This document shows, piece after piece, positions 36,226 to 51,655 of a DNA stretch of 64,000 bases. Positions within the stretch are counted from its first letter, which is position 1. Every line of letters starts with the position of its first letter. Made by a program: the position numbers and the translations under genes. The stretch covers positions 5,977-69,976 of the forward strand of contig JAMCQP010000034.1 of the NCBI GenBank assembly GCA_023381695.1. The letters are read 5' to 3'. The DNA comes from Bacillota bacterium (GTDB lineage: Bacteria > Bacillota > UBA5301 > JAMCQP01). Below the pieces are notes generated by a model. The model did no database searches and had not been told where the DNA came from. It was given only the letters and a program-made list of their open reading frames with translations.

Positions 36226-37032
36226 GTGAAGAGAGTGCTGACGATTGCTGGTTCCGATTCCGGAGGCGGCGCGGGGATTCAGGCGGATCTCAAGACCTTT
36301 TCCGCTCTGGGGACCTACGGCATGAGCGTGATCACGGCGGTCACCGCGCAGAACACCATGGGGGTGCTGGGGGTCAGGGAGTTGGAGCCCGGGTTTGTGG
36401 GGTTGCAACTGGACGCGATCTTTCAGGATATCGGGGCGGATGCCGCCAAGACGGGCATGGTCGCCAATGCCGGGATTATCCGGGCAGTGGCCGCCAAAGT
36501 TCGGGAGTACCGGGTGGCCAACCTGGTGGTGGATCCGGTCATGGTGGCCAAAAGTGGGGCGCACCTTCTGGCGCCCGAGGCCAGGGAAGCCCTGATTGAG
36601 CAACTTATGCCCATAGCCTGCGTGGTCACCCCGAATCTCATGGAAGCCGAGACGCTCACCGGGATCCGCATCGAGTCGCTGGCGGAGATGAAGCTGGCCG
36701 CCCGCCGGATCCGCGAGATGGGCAGCCGGCATGTCCTGGTAAAGGGAGGGCATTTGCCGGGGGATGCGACGGATCTGCTCTTTGACGGCAGGGAATTCCG
36801 GCTGTACCGTTCGGCCAGGATTGAGACCCGCCATACGCATGGCACCGGTTGCACTTTTTCGGCGGCGATTGCGGCCTGGTTGGCCCGGGGTCTGCCCGTC
36901 CCCGAGGCGGTGGAGCGGGCCAAAGGCTACATTACCGCGGCCATCGAAAAAGCGTTTCCCATCGGGCGTGGGGTTGGACCAGTAAACCACTTTTACAATT
37001 TTAATTTCAACGAAAGAGGGAAGGAAGAATGA
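36226..37032 (+). CDS. thiD: Hydroxymethylpyrimidine / phosphomethylpyrimidine kinase
   Basis: ThiD phosphorylates HMP to HMP-P and then HMP-PP, the pyrimidine half of thiamine. This 268-residue ribokinase-fold protein has LTIAGSDSGGGAGIQADLKT, the GTYGMSVITAVTAQNT region, DPVMVAKSG, and the anion-hole HTHGTGCTFSAAIAAWLA with the catalytic Asp/Cys region. The start is GTG preceded by AAGGAAGGG. It is the first gene after the TPP riboswitch. The leader between the terminator and the start contains short AATCAAAGCA-type repeats (ATCAAAGCGAATCAAAGC). Confidence 0.96.
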   Translation: MKRVLTIAGSDSGGGAGIQADLKTFSALGTYGMSVITAVTAQNTMGVLGVRELEPGFVGLQLDAIFQDIGADAAKTGMVANAGIIRAVAAKVREYRVANLVVDPVMVAKSGAHLLAPEAREALIEQLMPIACVVTPNLMEAETLTGIRIESLAEMKLAARRIREMGSRHVLVKGGHLPGDATDLLFDGREFRLYRSARIETRHTHGTGCTFSAAIAAWLARGLPVPEAVERAKGYITAAIEKAFPIGRGVGPVNHFYNFNFNERGKEE

Positions 37033-37078: not shown

Positions 37079-38365
37079 ATGACGACTTCGGGGGAGTTTT
37101 TGCAGGTTCCGGCCTCCCGGCGCAACCTGACCGGCGTGGATTTTGCCCTGTTATGGTTCGGCGCGGCGGTGTCCATGGCGGAGATTCTCACCGGCGGGCT
37201 CTTTGCCCCGCTGGGGTTCGGGTTGGGATTGGTGGCGATCCTGGCGGGGCATCTGCTGGGCAACACCCTTTTTGCCCTGGGAGGAGTGATCGGAGCGCGG
37301 GAGGGAATCCCCTCGATTGTTTCCACCCGCCCGGCCTTTGGCAGGCGGGGCTCTTACCTGGCTTCGGTCCTGAACATCTTGCAGCTTTTGGGCTGGACGG
37401 CGGTGATGATCATCGTCGCCGCCAGGGCGGTGAACACCATCTCCGCCGGATTATTTTCCTTTGACTCCCAGAACTTCTGGGTGGTGGCGATTGGGATAGC
37501 GGTAACCTGGTGGGCCTACGCCGGCAATCGCGGCTGGAAGGTGATCAACAACCTGGCGGTGATCTTGCTCTTTGCCCTCACTCTGGTGGTCACCAGGGTG
37601 GTCTTCGGCAGCCCGAAAGTTTTGAGCGCGCCCTCCTCCGGGCAGCTCTCTTTCGGCGCCGGTCTGGAGCTGGCGGTGGTGTTGCCGATCTCCTGGCTTC
37701 CGCTGATCGCCGATTATACCCGTTTTGCCCGCAGGACCGGCGGGGCGGCCTGGGGAAGCTGGCTGGGCTATTTTGTGGGCAGCAGCTGGATGTTTGTGGT
37801 TGGCCTGGCTGCGGCGCTGGCCACCGGCACGGCGGATCCGGTGCCAATGATGCTGGCTTCGCATCTGGGGTTGGCGGCTCTGGCGGTGGTTGTCCTGGCG
37901 ACGGTGACCACCACCTTTATGGATGTGTATTCCACGGCGGTTTCCACGCTCAATATCTTTCCGGGGTGGAAGGAGGGGTGGCTTACTCTGATCGCCGGTG
38001 TACTTGGGACGGTGCTGGCCCTATATTTCCCCATGGAGCGGTACGAGAATTTCCTGTATTTCCTGGGGGCCGTGTTTACCCCGCTTTTTGCCGTGGTGCT
38101 GGCCGATTACTTCCTCTTGCGCCGGGGCCGCCTGGAGCATGCGGCGCTCTTTGCCAAAGCCGGCCCCTATGAATACTGGAAAGGGATCAATCCCTGGGCG
38201 CTGGGAGCCTGGGCGGCGGGTGTGGCGGCCTATTACCTGGCTTTGCGGTGGAATCTTCCGGTGGGAGCCACTTTGCCCGCGGTGGCGGTCTCCGGGCTTC
38301 TCTACCTCGGCCAGCGGATTCCATGGGGGAAAAGGGTAAAAACGGCCTCGCATCAAGCGGGTTGA
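37079..38365 (+). CDS. cytX: Cytosine-permease family transporter, putative HMP transporter CytX
   Basis: A 428-residue NCS1-family permease with about twelve hydrophobic segments. It begins LTGVDFALLWFGAAVSMAEILTGG, as CytX proteins do, and has SWLPLIADYTRFAR and TTTFMDVYSTAVSTLNI. CytX is predicted by regulon analysis to import hydroxymethylpyrimidine and is usually TPP-controlled, as here. ThiD beside it would phosphorylate what it imports. ATG 37079 is preceded by GAGAGAAG, 46 bases after thiD. Confidence 0.9.
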   Translation: MTTSGEFLQVPASRRNLTGVDFALLWFGAAVSMAEILTGGLFAPLGFGLGLVAILAGHLLGNTLFALGGVIGAREGIPSIVSTRPAFGRRGSYLASVLNILQLLGWTAVMIIVAARAVNTISAGLFSFDSQNFWVVAIGIAVTWWAYAGNRGWKVINNLAVILLFALTLVVTRVVFGSPKVLSAPSSGQLSFGAGLELAVVLPISWLPLIADYTRFARRTGGAAWGSWLGYFVGSSWMFVVGLAAALATGTADPVPMMLASHLGLAALAVVVLATVTTTFMDVYSTAVSTLNIFPGWKEGWLTLIAGVLGTVLALYFPMERYENFLYFLGAVFTPLFAVVLADYFLLRRGRLEHAALFAKAGPYEYWKGINPWALGAWAAGVAAYYLALRWNLPVGATLPAVAVSGLLYLGQRIPWGKRVKTASHQAG

Positions 38366-38423
38366 CCCGCGACCCGGAGCAAGGTGGAGATGACTGTTGA
38401 TTTGCATAAGGGGGCGATCGGTA

Positions 38424-39296
38424 ATGGAGACGATTTTTCAAGAGAGCAAAGAACTGGCGGCCAGAGCGGGCGCGGCTCTGGAGAAGATCCGGCGGACCAG
38501 GCCGCTGATCCACCACATCACCAACGCCGTCACCATCGATGACAGCGCCAATATCGTGCTGTGCCTGGGGGCGCTGCCGGTGATGGCCCAGGCGCCGGAG
38601 GAAGTGGCGGAGATGGTTTCCGCGGCGGGAGCGCTGGTGTTGAATATCGGCACCCTCGCCAGAGAGCAGGTGGAGGCGATGGTGATCGCCGGGCGCCAGG
38701 CCAACAAGCTTGGCAAACCGGTGGTTCTGGATCCGGTGGGGGCCGGGGCCACCGTTATGCGTACCGAGGCGGCCAGGCGTATCCTGGCGGAGGTAAAGGT
38801 GGCGGTCCTCCGGGGAAATGCGGCGGAGATCAAAGCGGTGGCCGGGGCGGGAGGCAAGATCCGGGGTGTGGAGTCCCTGGAGGAAGATGCCCAGATTACA
38901 GTTCAAGCCAGAGACTTCGCCCGCCAGCTTGGCATGGTGGTGGCCATCACCGGAAAGACCGACGTGATCACCGACGGGCAAATCACCTACCTGGTGGACA
39001 ATGGGGATCCGATGCTGCGCACCGTGGTGGGGACCGGGTGCATGTCCACCTCGCTGATCGGCGCTTTCTGCGCGGTGGAACAAGACCATGCTTTTGCGGC
39101 GGCGGCCGGGTTGGTGGCCATGGGCCTGGCCGGGGAACGGGCCGCCGGACACACTGTGGCGCCAGGGCCTCCCGGGGATGGTTTACCGGCCTGGCCGGGC
39201 GAGATCGGCCCCGGGACTTTCAAGATGCGGCTTTTTGATGAGATCTATCACCTTTCCAGTGAAATGATCGAGGCTGGGGCAAGGATACGGAAATGA
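38424..39296 (+). CDS. thiM: Hydroxyethylthiazole kinase
   Basis: ThiM phosphorylates the thiazole moiety (THZ) for salvage. Marks are RPLIHHITNAVTIDDSANI, LDPVGAGAT, ILRGNAAEI (here VLRGNAAEIKAVAG), ITGKTDVITDG and the anion-hole GTGCMSTSLIGAF. ATG 38424 gives 290 residues and has AAGGGGG ten bases upstream. TTG 38397 with GGTGGAG is a real alternative. The next gene, thiW, is the predicted thiazole importer, and the pair would work together. Confidence 0.95.
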   Translation: METIFQESKELAARAGAALEKIRRTRPLIHHITNAVTIDDSANIVLCLGALPVMAQAPEEVAEMVSAAGALVLNIGTLAREQVEAMVIAGRQANKLGKPVVLDPVGAGATVMRTEAARRILAEVKVAVLRGNAAEIKAVAGAGGKIRGVESLEEDAQITVQARDFARQLGMVVAITGKTDVITDGQITYLVDNGDPMLRTVVGTGCMSTSLIGAFCAVEQDHAFAAAAGLVAMGLAGERAAGHTVAPGPPGDGLPAWPGEIGPGTFKMRLFDEIYHLSSEMIEAGARIRK

Positions 39297-39306
39297 GGTG
39301 AAAAAG

Positions 39307-39798
39307 ATGAAAAAAACTTACGAATTAACGGTGATGGCTCTGCTCGTCGCCATTGGAACGTTGGCATCTCAATTTGTATGGTTCCCCGCTGGAATAGCAA
39401 AAGCCTACCCCGTTCAGCACATGATCAACGTGATTGCCGCCGTATCACTCGGGCCACTGCCAGCGATGGGAATTGCTTTCGGGACAGGTTTTCTACGCAA
39501 TCTATTTGGCACTGGCTCCTTGTTAGCTTTCCCCGGTGGAATGATTGGGGCACTGCTTGCTGGTTATCTGTATCAACGGATTGGAAAGCCTTGGGCAGCT
39601 GCTGTTGGAGAAGTTATGGGGACGGGAATTGTCGCTTCCCTGGTTTCCGTTCCTTATGCAGCTCTTTTTATGGGCAAAGCAGTGGGCGCGTTGGCTTTCG
39701 TTCCTTCTTTTTTTATAAGTTCACTATCTGGCGCGGCAATCGGGGTAATATTGGTTTCCAGCTTAAGAAGGACCATCCTTAACAAAAATAATAGTTAA
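39307..39798 (+). CDS. thiW: ECF transporter S component ThiW (thiazole uptake)
   Basis: A 163-residue membrane protein with the ThiW pattern: KTYELTVMALLVAIGTLASQ, FPAGIAKAYPVQHMINVIAA, FGTGFLRNLFGTGSLLAFPG and GALLAGYLYQRIGK. ThiW is assigned to thiazole precursor uptake by its constant TPP-riboswitch control and thiM linkage. ATG 39307 has GAGGTGA five bases upstream, so the GTG at 39298 is less likely. Codon choice and base composition are much more AT-rich than in thiM and thiL on either side, pointing to recent acquisition. Confidence 0.9.
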   Translation: MKKTYELTVMALLVAIGTLASQFVWFPAGIAKAYPVQHMINVIAAVSLGPLPAMGIAFGTGFLRNLFGTGSLLAFPGGMIGALLAGYLYQRIGKPWAAAVGEVMGTGIVASLVSVPYAALFMGKAVGALAFVPSFFISSLSGAAIGVILVSSLRRTILNKNNS

Positions 39799-39835
39799 AA
39801 TACCACGATAATTTACAATGGGCGGTGGCCCGGCG

Positions 39836-40219
39836 ATGAAAGGGATAGACTACTCATTATACGTGGTCAGCGACCGGGGGCTGCTGCGAGGGCGGCCTCT
39901 CGTCCGGGCGGTTGAACAGGCCATCTTGGGCGGCGCTACAATCGTGCAGTTGCGCGAGAAGGCGGTATCCACCCGTGAATTTGTGAAGCTGGCCCAGGAA
40001 GTGCTGGCGGTTGCCAGGCAATACGGGGTGCCGCTCATCATCAACGACCGGATTGATGTGATGCTGGCGGTGGACGCGGACGGCGCCCATGTGGGCCAGG
40101 AGGATATGCCGGCGGTCCTGGCCGGCGTGGACGGGGTGGCGCTCGTTTCGGCCGTCTTCGGCCGGGAGGATATCAACGATGCGGCGGCCACCCTGGCGAC
40201 GCTCCTGAAGAATCGCTAA
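39836..40219 (+). CDS. thiE: Thiamine-phosphate synthase with an internal in-frame deletion
   Basis: ThiE joins HMP-PP and THZ-P to thiamine phosphate. The first 90 residues are normal (YSLYVVSDRGLLRGRPLV, GGATIVQLREKAVSTREF, PLIINDRIDVMLAVDADG, HVGQEDMPA). The frame then jumps to GVDGVALVSAVFGREDINDA, which is the end of the family. About 80 central residues are missing, including the IGVSA, D-Y-x-GxGPxxPTxTK and VAIGGI segments that bind diphosphate and thiazole phosphate. The frame is kept. As shown, the enzyme should be inactive. ATG 39836 has GGTGG upstream; ATG 39818 lacks a ribosome site. An assembly collapse cannot be excluded. Confidence 0.85.
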   Translation: MKGIDYSLYVVSDRGLLRGRPLVRAVEQAILGGATIVQLREKAVSTREFVKLAQEVLAVARQYGVPLIINDRIDVMLAVDADGAHVGQEDMPAVLAGVDGVALVSAVFGREDINDAAATLATLLKNR

Positions 40220-40231
40220 AGGAGGGGCAAT

Positions 40232-41239
40232 ATGACGGAGGGGTCCACCAGCTTGAGGAGTGTCGGGGAGTTCGGGCTTATTGAGCGGTTTAGAAAGTAC
40301 GGCAGCGTTCGTAGCGGGGTGCTCGCGGGAATCGGCGACGATGCGGCGGTGCTGGAGGGCAGGGAAGGTTATGTTACGCTCCTCACCACGGACATGCTCA
40401 CGGAAGGGGTGCACTTCCTACGTGACCGGGTCTTGCCTTACCAGCTCGGCCGGAAATCCATGGCCTGCAATGTGAGCGACATTGCGGCCATGGGAGGCTA
40501 TCCCACCTTTGCGGTGGTTTCGCTGGGGCTGCCCGCGGACTTGACGGTGGAATTTGTGGAGGAGTTTTACCGGGGGTTGGCGGAGGAGGCGGGCCGGTGG
40601 GGCGCAACTGTCGTCGGGGGCGACACCGTGGAGAGCCAGGGAGGGCTGGTAATCAACGTGGCCTTGCTCGGCGAGGTGGAAGCGGGCCGTCAGGTCCTGC
40701 GCAGCACGGCCAGAGCGGGCGATACCATCTATGTCACCAATGTGATCGGGGAGTCGGCGGCGGGGCTGGCGGCGATCCTAGATCCAGAAATGCCGTTGCC
40801 GCCGCCGATACGCGAAGAATTGATCCTGCGTCATTACCTGCCCACGCCGCGAGTGCCGGAAGCAAGGGAAATAAGTCAAAGGGTCTGGGCCAGTGCGATG
40901 GCTGATATCAGCGACGGGATTGCCGGCGACCTGCGGCGGATCTGCGAGGCCAGCGGAGTGGGGGCGGTGGTTTACGCGGAGAGGGTGCCGGTATCTGCTG
41001 GCGTGAAGATGGTGGCGGGCTTTCTGGGCAAGGAAGCCTATCAGTTGGCCCTAACGGGCGGAGAGGACTATGAACTGCTCTTTACCGCGAAGGCCGGGGA
41101 TTTGCCGGAATACCTGCCGGAGAGCGGCACCAGGGTAACGTCCATCGGGGAGATCCGGCCTCTGGATGAAGGGCTCATACTTGTTCCGCCGGGAGGGGAA
41201 ACTGCTCCGCTGCCCGCGGGCGGGTACGATCATTTTTAG
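40232..41239 (+). CDS. thiL: Thiamine-monophosphate kinase
   Basis: ThiL phosphorylates thiamine phosphate to the cofactor TPP. It is a 335-residue PurM/AIR-synthase-fold protein with GIGDDAAVLEG, LLTTDMLTEGVHFLRD, KSMACNVSDIAAMGG, VVGGDTVES, ADISDGIAGDLRRI and LTGGEDYELLFT. AAAGGAGG precedes the ATG. It lies 12 bases after thiE and is the last gene of the riboswitch operon. It is intact, in contrast to thiE. Confidence 0.96.
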   Translation: MTEGSTSLRSVGEFGLIERFRKYGSVRSGVLAGIGDDAAVLEGREGYVTLLTTDMLTEGVHFLRDRVLPYQLGRKSMACNVSDIAAMGGYPTFAVVSLGLPADLTVEFVEEFYRGLAEEAGRWGATVVGGDTVESQGGLVINVALLGEVEAGRQVLRSTARAGDTIYVTNVIGESAAGLAAILDPEMPLPPPIREELILRHYLPTPRVPEAREISQRVWASAMADISDGIAGDLRRICEASGVGAVVYAERVPVSAGVKMVAGFLGKEAYQLALTGGEDYELLFTAKAGDLPEYLPESGTRVTSIGEIRPLDEGLILVPPGGETAPLPAGGYDHF

Positions 41240-41518: not shown

Positions 41519-42568
41519 ATGGAGAAACTGATTGCGCTGCAAAAGAAGATTGCGCCTGAACTGGCGGCGGTAATCGAGCACAGGTATATTTTGCTGCGCA
41601 ACATCTACTTTATCCAGCCGATCGGGCGGCGTACCCTGGCGGAACGGCTCAGGGAGCCGGAACGTTATGTGAGGCGGGAGTTGGACTTTTTGCGGGATCA
41701 GGGCTTGATCACGGCCGCCGCCGGAGGTGTGAGCATCACCCTTGATGGCGAGGCCCTCCTGTGGGAACTCAAGGATTACATAAGCCAGTTGAGGGGATTG
41801 GCGGATCTGGAAGGGCTTCTGGCCGCGAAGCTCAATCTTAAAAAAGCGGTGGTTGTACCCGGGGACTCCGACCAGGACGAGACGGTGAAGAATGAGATTG
41901 GCCGCGCCGCGGCGAAGCTCCTGAAAGAGGTGTTGGCGGACGGAAACGTCCTGGCGGTGACCGGCGGGACCACCATGGCGGATGTGGCTGGCGCCCTGGC
42001 CGGCGTATTCGTCCGGAGGAATGTCACCGTGGTTCCGGCCCGGGGCGGCCTGGGGGAAGAGGTGGAGATCCAGTCCAACACCATCGCGGCCAAGATTGCC
42101 AAGGGATTGGACGGCGCCTACCGGCTGCTGCACGTCCCGGACGATCTGGGGGATGAAGCGATTGCCGCGGTCAGCAACGAGCCCAAGATCCGGGAGATTT
42201 TGGCCCTTCTGAAGCGGGCCGACGTGCTGCTCCACGGGATAGGCACCGCGGAGGAGATGGCCAGCCGCCGGGGAATGGACGACAAGGAGATCGCCGCCTT
42301 GCGGCAAAAAGAGGCCGTGGGCGAAGCTTTCGGGTACTATTTTAACAGGCGCGGGGATTGTGTCTATGCCTCCAGCAGCGTGGGAATCCAGCTGGAGGAT
42401 CTCGAGAATATTCCTCTGGTTATCGCGGTGGGCGGTGGCAGCAGCAAGGCGGAACCCGTCCTGGCGGTGATGTCCAACCGCTACCAGAATATGCTGGTTA
42501 CCGACGAGGGCGCGGCTAGAGAGATCCTGAAGATTAAAGAGAGGTCCCTGAAGATTAACCGGAACTAA
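41519..42568 (+). CDS. cggR: Central glycolytic genes regulator CggR (SorC family)
   Basis: A SorC-type repressor of 349 residues. It begins MEKLIALQKKIAPELAAVIE, with the CggR-specific N-terminal winged helix (RYILLRNIYFIQPIGRRTLA, ERYVRRELDFLRDQGLI). The C-terminal sugar-phosphate domain has VLAVTGGTTMADVA and LLHGIGTAEEMA. CggR represses lower glycolysis until fructose-1,6-bisphosphate rises. It precedes gap-pgk-tpiA-gpmI-eno and has its own operator just upstream, so autoregulation is expected. TAGGAG precedes the ATG. Confidence 0.95.
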   Translation: MEKLIALQKKIAPELAAVIEHRYILLRNIYFIQPIGRRTLAERLREPERYVRRELDFLRDQGLITAAAGGVSITLDGEALLWELKDYISQLRGLADLEGLLAAKLNLKKAVVVPGDSDQDETVKNEIGRAAAKLLKEVLADGNVLAVTGGTTMADVAGALAGVFVRRNVTVVPARGGLGEEVEIQSNTIAAKIAKGLDGAYRLLHVPDDLGDEAIAAVSNEPKIREILALLKRADVLLHGIGTAEEMASRRGMDDKEIAALRQKEAVGEAFGYYFNRRGDCVYASSSVGIQLEDLENIPLVIAVGGGSSKAEPVLAVMSNRYQNMLVTDEGAAREILKIKERSLKINRN

Positions 42569-42606
42569 AAGGGAAATACGAGGTGACCGAGAACTCTGTG
42601 GGGTAA

Positions 42607-43653
<1,047 letters not shown>

Positions 43654-43654
43654 T

Positions 43655-43694
43655 AAGAGATTTGTTGCATATTGAAGAGATTTGTTGCATATTG
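43655..43694. repeat. Perfect 20-bp tandem duplication between gap and pgk
   Basis: AAGAGATTTGTTGCATATTG occurs twice head-to-tail (43655-43674, 43675-43694) without mismatch, starting two bases after the gap stop codon (43651-43653). Confidence 0.95.
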
Positions 43695-43733
43695 GCGTAA
43701 CACGGTTGCGGCCCGATTGGAGGGGACTGTTAT

Positions 43734-44921
43734 ATGGAAAAGTTGACGCTCAAGGACCTGGATCTCAAGGGAAAGCGGGTCTTCATTCGCGTGGACTTCA
43801 ACGTCCCGGTGGATGACCAGAACCAGATCACCGACGACACCCGGATCCGGGCCGCCCTGCCCACAATCCGGTACGTGGTGGAACAGGGAGGGAAGGCGAT
43901 TCTGGCCTCGCATTTCGGCCGGCCGAAGGGCAAGCCGGAGGACGCTTTCCGCCTGGATCACGTGGCCCGGCGGCTGGAAGAGCTCCTGGGCAAGAAAGTT
44001 GTCAAGGTCAACGACTGCGTCGGAGATGAGCCCAAAGCCGCCATCGCCAAGATGGCGCCCGGCGACGTGCTTCTTCTGGAGAACGTCCGCTTCCACGCGG
44101 GGGAGGAGAAGAATGACCCGGAATTTGCCAGGGCGCTGGCGGAGCTGGCGGACGTCTACGTCAACGACGCTTTTGGCGCGGCGCACCGGGCCCACGCCTC
44201 CACGGCCGGCATTGCCAAATATCTGCCCGCGGCGGCGGGCTTTCTGATGCAAAAAGAGATCGAGACCATGGGCAAAGCTCTCCAAAATCCGGAGAGGCCC
44301 TTTGTGGCGGTTCTGGGTGGCAAGAAGGTCTCCGACAAGATCGGCGTCATCGAAAACCTGCTGGGCAAGGTCAATGCCCTGATCATCGGGGGCGCCATGG
44401 CCTACACCTTCCTCAAGGCCCGGGGTTATGAGATCGGAAACTCGATCCTGGATGAGGAAAATGTGGATTTTGCCAGGCGGATGATCAACGAGGCCCCCAA
44501 AAAAGGGGTGAAGCTGCTCTTGCCCATTGACGTGGTGGTGGCGGATCAGTTCAAGGAGGACGCCAAACAGCAGATTGTGGCGGTGGATAAGATTCCTTCG
44601 GGCTGGCAGGGCATGGACATCGGCCCCAAGACCAGGGAAGCCTTTGCCGACGAGATCCGCCGGGCAAAGACGGTGGTCTGGAACGGCCCCATGGGGGTCT
44701 TTGAGATGCCGCCATTTGCGGTGGGCACCCGGGCGGTGGCCGAGGCCATGGCCGGGTGCCGCGGGATTACGATCATCGGCGGCGGGGATTCCGCGGCGGC
44801 GGTGGAACTTCTGGGGTTTGCGGACAGGATGACGCATATCTCCACCGGGGGCGGCGCCTCCCTGGAATTTCTGGAAGGCAAGGAACTTCCTGGTGTGGCG
44901 GCCCTCAACGACAAAAAGTGA
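43734..44921 (+). CDS. pgk: Phosphoglycerate kinase
   Basis: Transfers phosphate from 1,3-bisphosphoglycerate to ADP. A 395-residue hinge-type kinase with [73 protein letters not shown] and [14 protein letters not shown] at the nucleotide site. GGAGGGG precedes the ATG. The gene order gap-pgk-tpiA-gpmI-eno is the standard Bacillota operon. Confidence 0.98.
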
Positions 44922-51304: not shown

Positions 51305-51655
51305 GGGGGCGATAGGATTCGACGGGGAGAGTGGGGACAGAAGTAGCGAGTCGAGTTGCCTGCCAGCTCGTTAAAACGGTGGGACTTAAAGTAAACGCAG
51401 ACAATTACGCTTACGCTGCTTAATTAAAGCAGCCGTCCAACCCGAGTTCGCCGGTGGCACGGGATTGGGCGTCACTTAACCGGCTACCGAGGCGCCAATT
51501 CTCGGAGGCGCGGGGGGAATCTTCATCGAGATAGCCAATGCCTGAGCCTGTCTGCCGGCGCTGCGGCGGCGAAACCTTAGTGGGCGGACTGCACTCGGAG
51601 AAGCTGCTGTTGTCACCTTTTCGGACGCGGGGTTCGATACCCGCCGCCTCCACCA
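51305..51655 (+). ncRNA. ssrA: Transfer-messenger RNA (tmRNA)
   Basis: One-piece tmRNA of 351 bases. The 5' GGGGGCG pairs with 3' CGCCTCC to form the acceptor stem, followed by ACCA. The tRNA-like T arm has GGTTCGATACC. The reading frame starts at GCA 51397 and encodes A-D-N-Y-A-Y-A-A, then TAA at 51421, so the degradation tag is (A)ADNYAYAA, a short form ending in the expected AYAA. Pseudoknot-like GC segments fill 51430-51600. It is next to smpB. Confidence 0.96.

Follow-up and report, generated by a model that had tools for sequence, protein, structure and literature searches.

The open reading frame at positions 39836–40219 (plus strand) of the window, by which we mean the whole 64,000-nt stretch of DNA analysed here, encodes a ThiE (thiamine phosphate synthase) which, as judged from alignments, is without its centre. 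The explanation that we favour, with a probability of roughly 0.7, is that the thiE gene of a thiamine-precursor salvage operon was recently inactivated by the in-frame loss of some 245 nt from its interior, and that an auxotroph salvaging precursors would thereby have become one that requires thiamine itself.

The truncated gene (thiE') encodes 127 amino acids with no internal stop; an alternative in-frame start is present as an ATG at 39818. When its product was compared with the Pfam TMP-TENI family (PF02581), only positions 1–86 of the 180 in the profile were matched (E 5e-29), corresponding to the N-terminal piece. The match of this first piece to ThiE is far above chance, and a second piece follows in order and in frame. 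The TIGR00693 model was likewise matched over profile positions 1–87 of 197 only, with 108.6 bits, below its cut-off of 145.1; a full-length TIM-barrel ThiE above the equivalog score was thus found with neither TIGR00693 nor PF02581. In an alignment of 52 sequences (the thiE' product and 51 relatives) the thiE' product showed one internal gap only, 82 columns wide and directly behind its residue 96, which the relatives fill with 81 residues (23 sequences) or 82 residues (28 sequences). The sequence at the gap runs ...GQEDMPAVLA and continues in frame with GVDGVALVSAVF, which belongs to the strand-8 region of ThiE, and the product ends at the usual ThiE C-terminus. Comparison with Pyrococcus furiosus ThiE (1XI3) gave the same two pieces, residues 16–105 matching query residues 7–99 and residues 173–208 matching query residues 88–122. 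The N-terminal part, with residues 1–96 and barrel strands 1–4, is encoded at 39836–40123, and the C-terminal part, consisting of 31 residues with strand 8, the last helix and the stop, at 40124–40219. The junction lies at 40112–40126, where the exact base is ambiguous and approximately 243–246 nt fewer are present than in the relatives; the DNA is contiguous across it in the assembly. The original prediction, made from the letters alone, of an in-frame loss of about 80 central residues with a junction near 40112–40128 was therefore borne out by the alignment (81–82 residues, ~245 nt), and its coordinates for the reading frame were right. It also held the two ends of the protein to be conserved, which they are; the sizes it gave, 90 and 35 residues, have to be corrected to 96 and 31.

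Of the 46 columns conserved in at least 90% of the aligned sequences, 15 fall within the gap, while at the 31 retained near-invariant columns the thiE' product agrees at 29. The lost columns include G101, G107, S109, T135, T137, K138 and the I-G-G motif at 164–166. All of the central conserved columns S109, T135, T137, K138, G165 and G166 are inside the 82-column gap, and so is the whole T-x-T-K motif (columns 135–138). Retained on the N-terminal side are Q38, R40, K42, N70, D71 and D90; in Bacillus subtilis ThiE, Q-x-R-E-K, N-D-R and the D of the GQED region bind diphosphate and Mg2+. Column 138 probably corresponds to Lys159 of the B. subtilis enzyme, an equivalence drawn from the motif and not from a direct alignment. 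A ThiE Lys has been studied as K159A in 3O16, according to the title of that entry; neither Ser130 nor Lys159 of B. subtilis ThiE was named in any open paper found by our literature search. In terms of structure, β-α units 5–7 (strands 5–7) of the eight-fold TIM barrel are missing, and the barrel is therefore unable to close. A paper on the Mycobacterium enzyme (PMC3144219) assigns Gly125 and Val158 of Pyrococcus ThiE to the groove that holds the substrate; the two would lie inside the missing part, between residues 105 and 173 of 1XI3, if the numbering of that paper equals the chain numbering. From these comparisons we strongly infer that much of the substrate pocket is lost and that TMP synthase activity is very probably lost with it. 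Measured against intact orthologues, thiE' lacks its catalytic part, as is characteristic of a pseudogene.

A 127-residue protein with an open frame and intact retained invariants might instead work as a miniature ThiE, or it might be a half barrel put to a new use, possibly with activity in dimeric form. An AlphaFold2 model could be read in the same way, since it was confident (mean pLDDT 92.6) and showed a five-stranded partial barrel with strands 1–4 and 8 only, which superposed on ThiE structures with a TMq of 0.84. However, the input alignment of the model consisted of full-length ThiE proteins. The pLDDT consequently mostly mirrors the contacts of the parent fold and says little on stability, and we rejected the model as uninformative about function. 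The T-x-T-K and I-G-G motifs are lost, and the same form was seen in none of the 80 nearest loci, nor among the matches listed of a 113-genome tally (see below). We consider such a miniature enzyme highly improbable, and still less probable its more specific version, in which a five-stranded partial barrel keeping the HMP-PP diphosphate and magnesium site would be active with a partner copy or would have taken on another role in the salvage operon, as its regulator or by binding HMP-PP.

The truncated gene is located within an operon of the order thiD-cytX-thiM-thiW-thiE'-thiL, all on the plus strand, in which every gene except thiE' is complete by curated models. At its head is a TPP riboswitch (RF00059, 36028–36132), matched over its full length (1–105) with 66.9 bits against a gathering score of 54.3. 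There follow thiD for the HMP/HMP-P kinase (36226–37032, 268 aa; TIGR00097, 357.8 bits, full profile), cytX for a candidate HMP permease (37079–38365, 428 aa; TIGR02358, 385 bits, above cut-off), thiM for hydroxyethylthiazole kinase (38397–39296; TIGR00694, 275.7 bits; NF006830, 317 bits) and thiW for the S component of a thiazole-precursor ECF transporter (39298–39798; TIGR02359, 165.7 bits). Downstream of thiE' is thiL for thiamine-phosphate kinase (40232–41239, 335 aa; TIGR01379, 306.7 bits), which had been predicted to be intact and which indeed covers the full profile (1–320). Each half of thiamine is phosphorylated by its own kinase, ThiD or ThiM; ThiE then joins the halves, and ThiL makes TPP. 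The operon is thus a pure precursor-salvage set that is unable to finish without ThiE: among the four enzymes of a dual HMP/HET salvage operon, ThiD, ThiM and ThiL are complete and ThiE is incomplete. In PMC6593275, the import of HMP is ascribed to CytX and that of hydroxyethylthiazole to ThiW.

Several further features of the region were recorded. The GC3 of thiW is 0.44 compared with 0.74–0.78 in thiD, cytX, thiM and thiL; the gene looks foreign, and a separate entry into the operon is suggested. It separates thiM from thiE', two genes that lie near each other in most relatives. With its start at the TTG, as called, thiM has about 25 residues ahead of the conserved domain; its real start may be an internal ATG. 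Beyond thiL, at 41519–44921, there is a glycolytic operon in which a SorC/CggR-like regulator is followed by genes for GAPDH and phosphoglycerate kinase, as recognised from their translations, and at 51305–51655 a tmRNA gene gave a full-length Rfam match.

If ThiE were encoded elsewhere, the pathway could still be completed, and the original prediction had offered another ThiE in the genome as one of three options. The search for a second thiE or a thiN that it called for gave no support to this option. The assembly is a draft of 122 contigs, 89.56% complete, and the contig that carries the window is at least 130 kb long. In this assembly thiE' was the single PF02581 match, with no second TMP-TENI protein; a local family search found the missing ThiE middle nowhere else in the genome, and no ThiN-type TMP synthase was detected. 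The draft may lack about 10% of the genome, so that a second thiE could have escaped assembly, and the operon is otherwise maintained. Nevertheless, with neither PF02581 nor ThiN matched elsewhere in the assembly, we regard completion of the pathway by a second TMP synthase, whether another thiE or an unrelated enzyme, as quite improbable.

The cell would also have no means of making thiamine de novo. Neither ThiC nor TenA was found in the assembly, and the only matches to ThiG were of 22–26 bits to parts of other proteins, none of them convincing; we therefore conclude that de novo synthesis is absent. The original prediction had pointed out that ThiL needs the product of ThiE. It has to be corrected in that a broken ThiE alone does not mean that there is no TPP, because a genuine thiamine pyrophosphokinase (TPK) is encoded on contig C42 ( TIGR01378, 164 bits against a cut-off of 76). 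TPK converts thiamine directly to TPP, which makes TPP possible without ThiE and ThiL. A second TPK_catalytic match (C86) was rejected as a TPK and corresponds to the division protein SteA. No match to ThiT, the usual thiamine transporter, turned up in the assembly. A second TPP riboswitch was detected on contig C44 (C44:86723–86834). The region C44:86723–90100 (L119:3724–7100) consists of this riboswitch followed by genes for a PF01910 MTH1187-family thiamine-binding protein, an ABC permease, an NMT1/THI5-like binding protein and an ATPase. This arrangement suggests an importer of thiamine or HMP, of which the small thiamine-binding protein may be a sensor or a subunit. It could be either substrate, because ThiXYZ-type ABC transporters are ascribed to thiamine or to HMP depending on the lineage (PMC6593275). 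Of the three options that had been proposed, namely another ThiE, an assembly collapse, or a broken pathway with sufficient thiamine uptake, the last is the best supported, by TPK and by this riboswitch-controlled candidate thiamine/HMP operon.

All of the 80 nearest ThiE loci from GTDB were full length (80/80). Two Peptococcaceae loci in which the match reached query residue 120 had seemed to be cases of the same truncation and were rejected because they are full-length ThiE. No relatives were found on viral contigs. In a sample of the phylum, 113 of 150 genomes matched the thiE model, and among the matches listed every other ORF had at least 190 codons versus 135 for thiE'. Since 66 of these 80 nearest loci carry thiM close to thiE and the order thiD-cytX-thiM-thiE recurs in several of them (L041, L044, L051, L065), thiE' occupies the slot of the operon's own thiE. 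Within the class, five of the six relatives (G001–G006) gave no match to the ThiE fragment, and TIGR00693 was also without a match in four of these five, those four being more than 90% complete. All five have a full TPK, beside the SteA-type partial match, so that ThiE-less life is common around the species of the window, and it is the salvage operon itself that is unusual. One further class relative (G003) is the reverse case, in that ThiE is matched there whereas a full TPK is not. A full ThiM was confined to the genome of the window when compared with the class relatives; the matches in the others (21–32 bits, inside ORFs of 513–556 residues) were rejected as ThiM since their extent is not that of ThiM. 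It is possible that the species acquired the salvage operon by transfer and that the operon was broken afterwards.

The intact state of all the near relatives could also be expected if the chromosome itself carried an intact thiE and the assembler had skipped part of it or had chosen a deleted strain variant. The draft state of the assembly (122 contigs, 89.56% complete), the integrity of every other gene of the operon and the lack of decay among the retained ThiE residues all agree with this explanation, although a genuine deletion of recent date would leave the sequence just as free of decay. Collapse, however, requires a repeat at both ends, and only short imperfect repeats, with no long direct repeat, were found near the junction, where words of 16–31 bases are unique within the window. 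Moreover, the gap is in frame with no other damage, and relatives in the class are likewise without ThiE. We therefore consider an artefact or a minority variant unlikely, while giving it some weight. A quasi-palindrome is present at 40115–40132 in thiE'; it cannot be tied to the deletion without an intact ancestor.

For the recent inactivating deletion, which remains our preferred reading, a plausible mechanism is replication slippage between short homologies, since in relatives P-A-x-x-A can be read on both sides of the missing segment. The in-frame outcome of a deletion has a one-in-three chance and needs no selection. That the event was recent is suggested by the retained near-invariant residues, intact at 29 of 31 positions as a recent event would leave them. 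The rest of the operon shows no decay either, which speaks against a dead pathway, though it is expected if the loss is recent. HMP imported by CytX and hydroxyethylthiazole handled by ThiW and ThiM would still be phosphorylated and would no longer be joined. TPP would then be made from imported thiamine via TPK, with uptake perhaps by the C44 operon of the riboswitch-controlled thiamine-binding protein and ABC transporter. Among gut genomes, those with ThiD, ThiE, ThiM and ThiL/ThiN are classed as auxotrophs using thiamine or HMP plus HET, and those with ThiL/ThiN alone as auxotrophs needing thiamine (PMC6593275, Table 1). In these classes the loss of ThiE would therefore shift the genome from the thiamine-or-HMP-plus-HET class to the thiamine-only class.

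If the deletion is real, a lineage has been caught switching its vitamin B1 need from the halves of thiamine to whole thiamine with the remainder of the operon intact. This calls for caution in the genome-based prediction of B-vitamin requirements, where acceptance of partial ThiE matches would label the organism a precursor salvager. The process itself is most likely the well-known one of ordinary gene decay and loss, of which thiE' would be a new and unsurprising instance.

Compared with ThiE proteins (TIGR00693; B. subtilis 2TPS and P. furiosus 1XI3), the thiE' product is alike in that residues 1–96 and 97–127 align in order and in frame, and its gene is placed after thiazole genes and before thiL; it is unlike them in lacking 81–82 central residues, three of eight β-α units and 15 near-invariant positions. 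The set of ThiD, ThiE, ThiM and ThiL with CytX/ThiW found in 'Ahz' auxotrophs (PMC6593275) is reproduced here in its other genes and in both transporters, all in one TPP-riboswitch operon, whereas ThiE is truncated, so that the set is expected to be non-functional. With auxotrophs that need whole thiamine (ThiL/ThiN only, PMC6593275) and with those class relatives that have TPK and no ThiE, the genome shares TPK and the lack of a detected complete TMP synthase, and it differs from them in that the remainder of its precursor-salvage operon is still whole.
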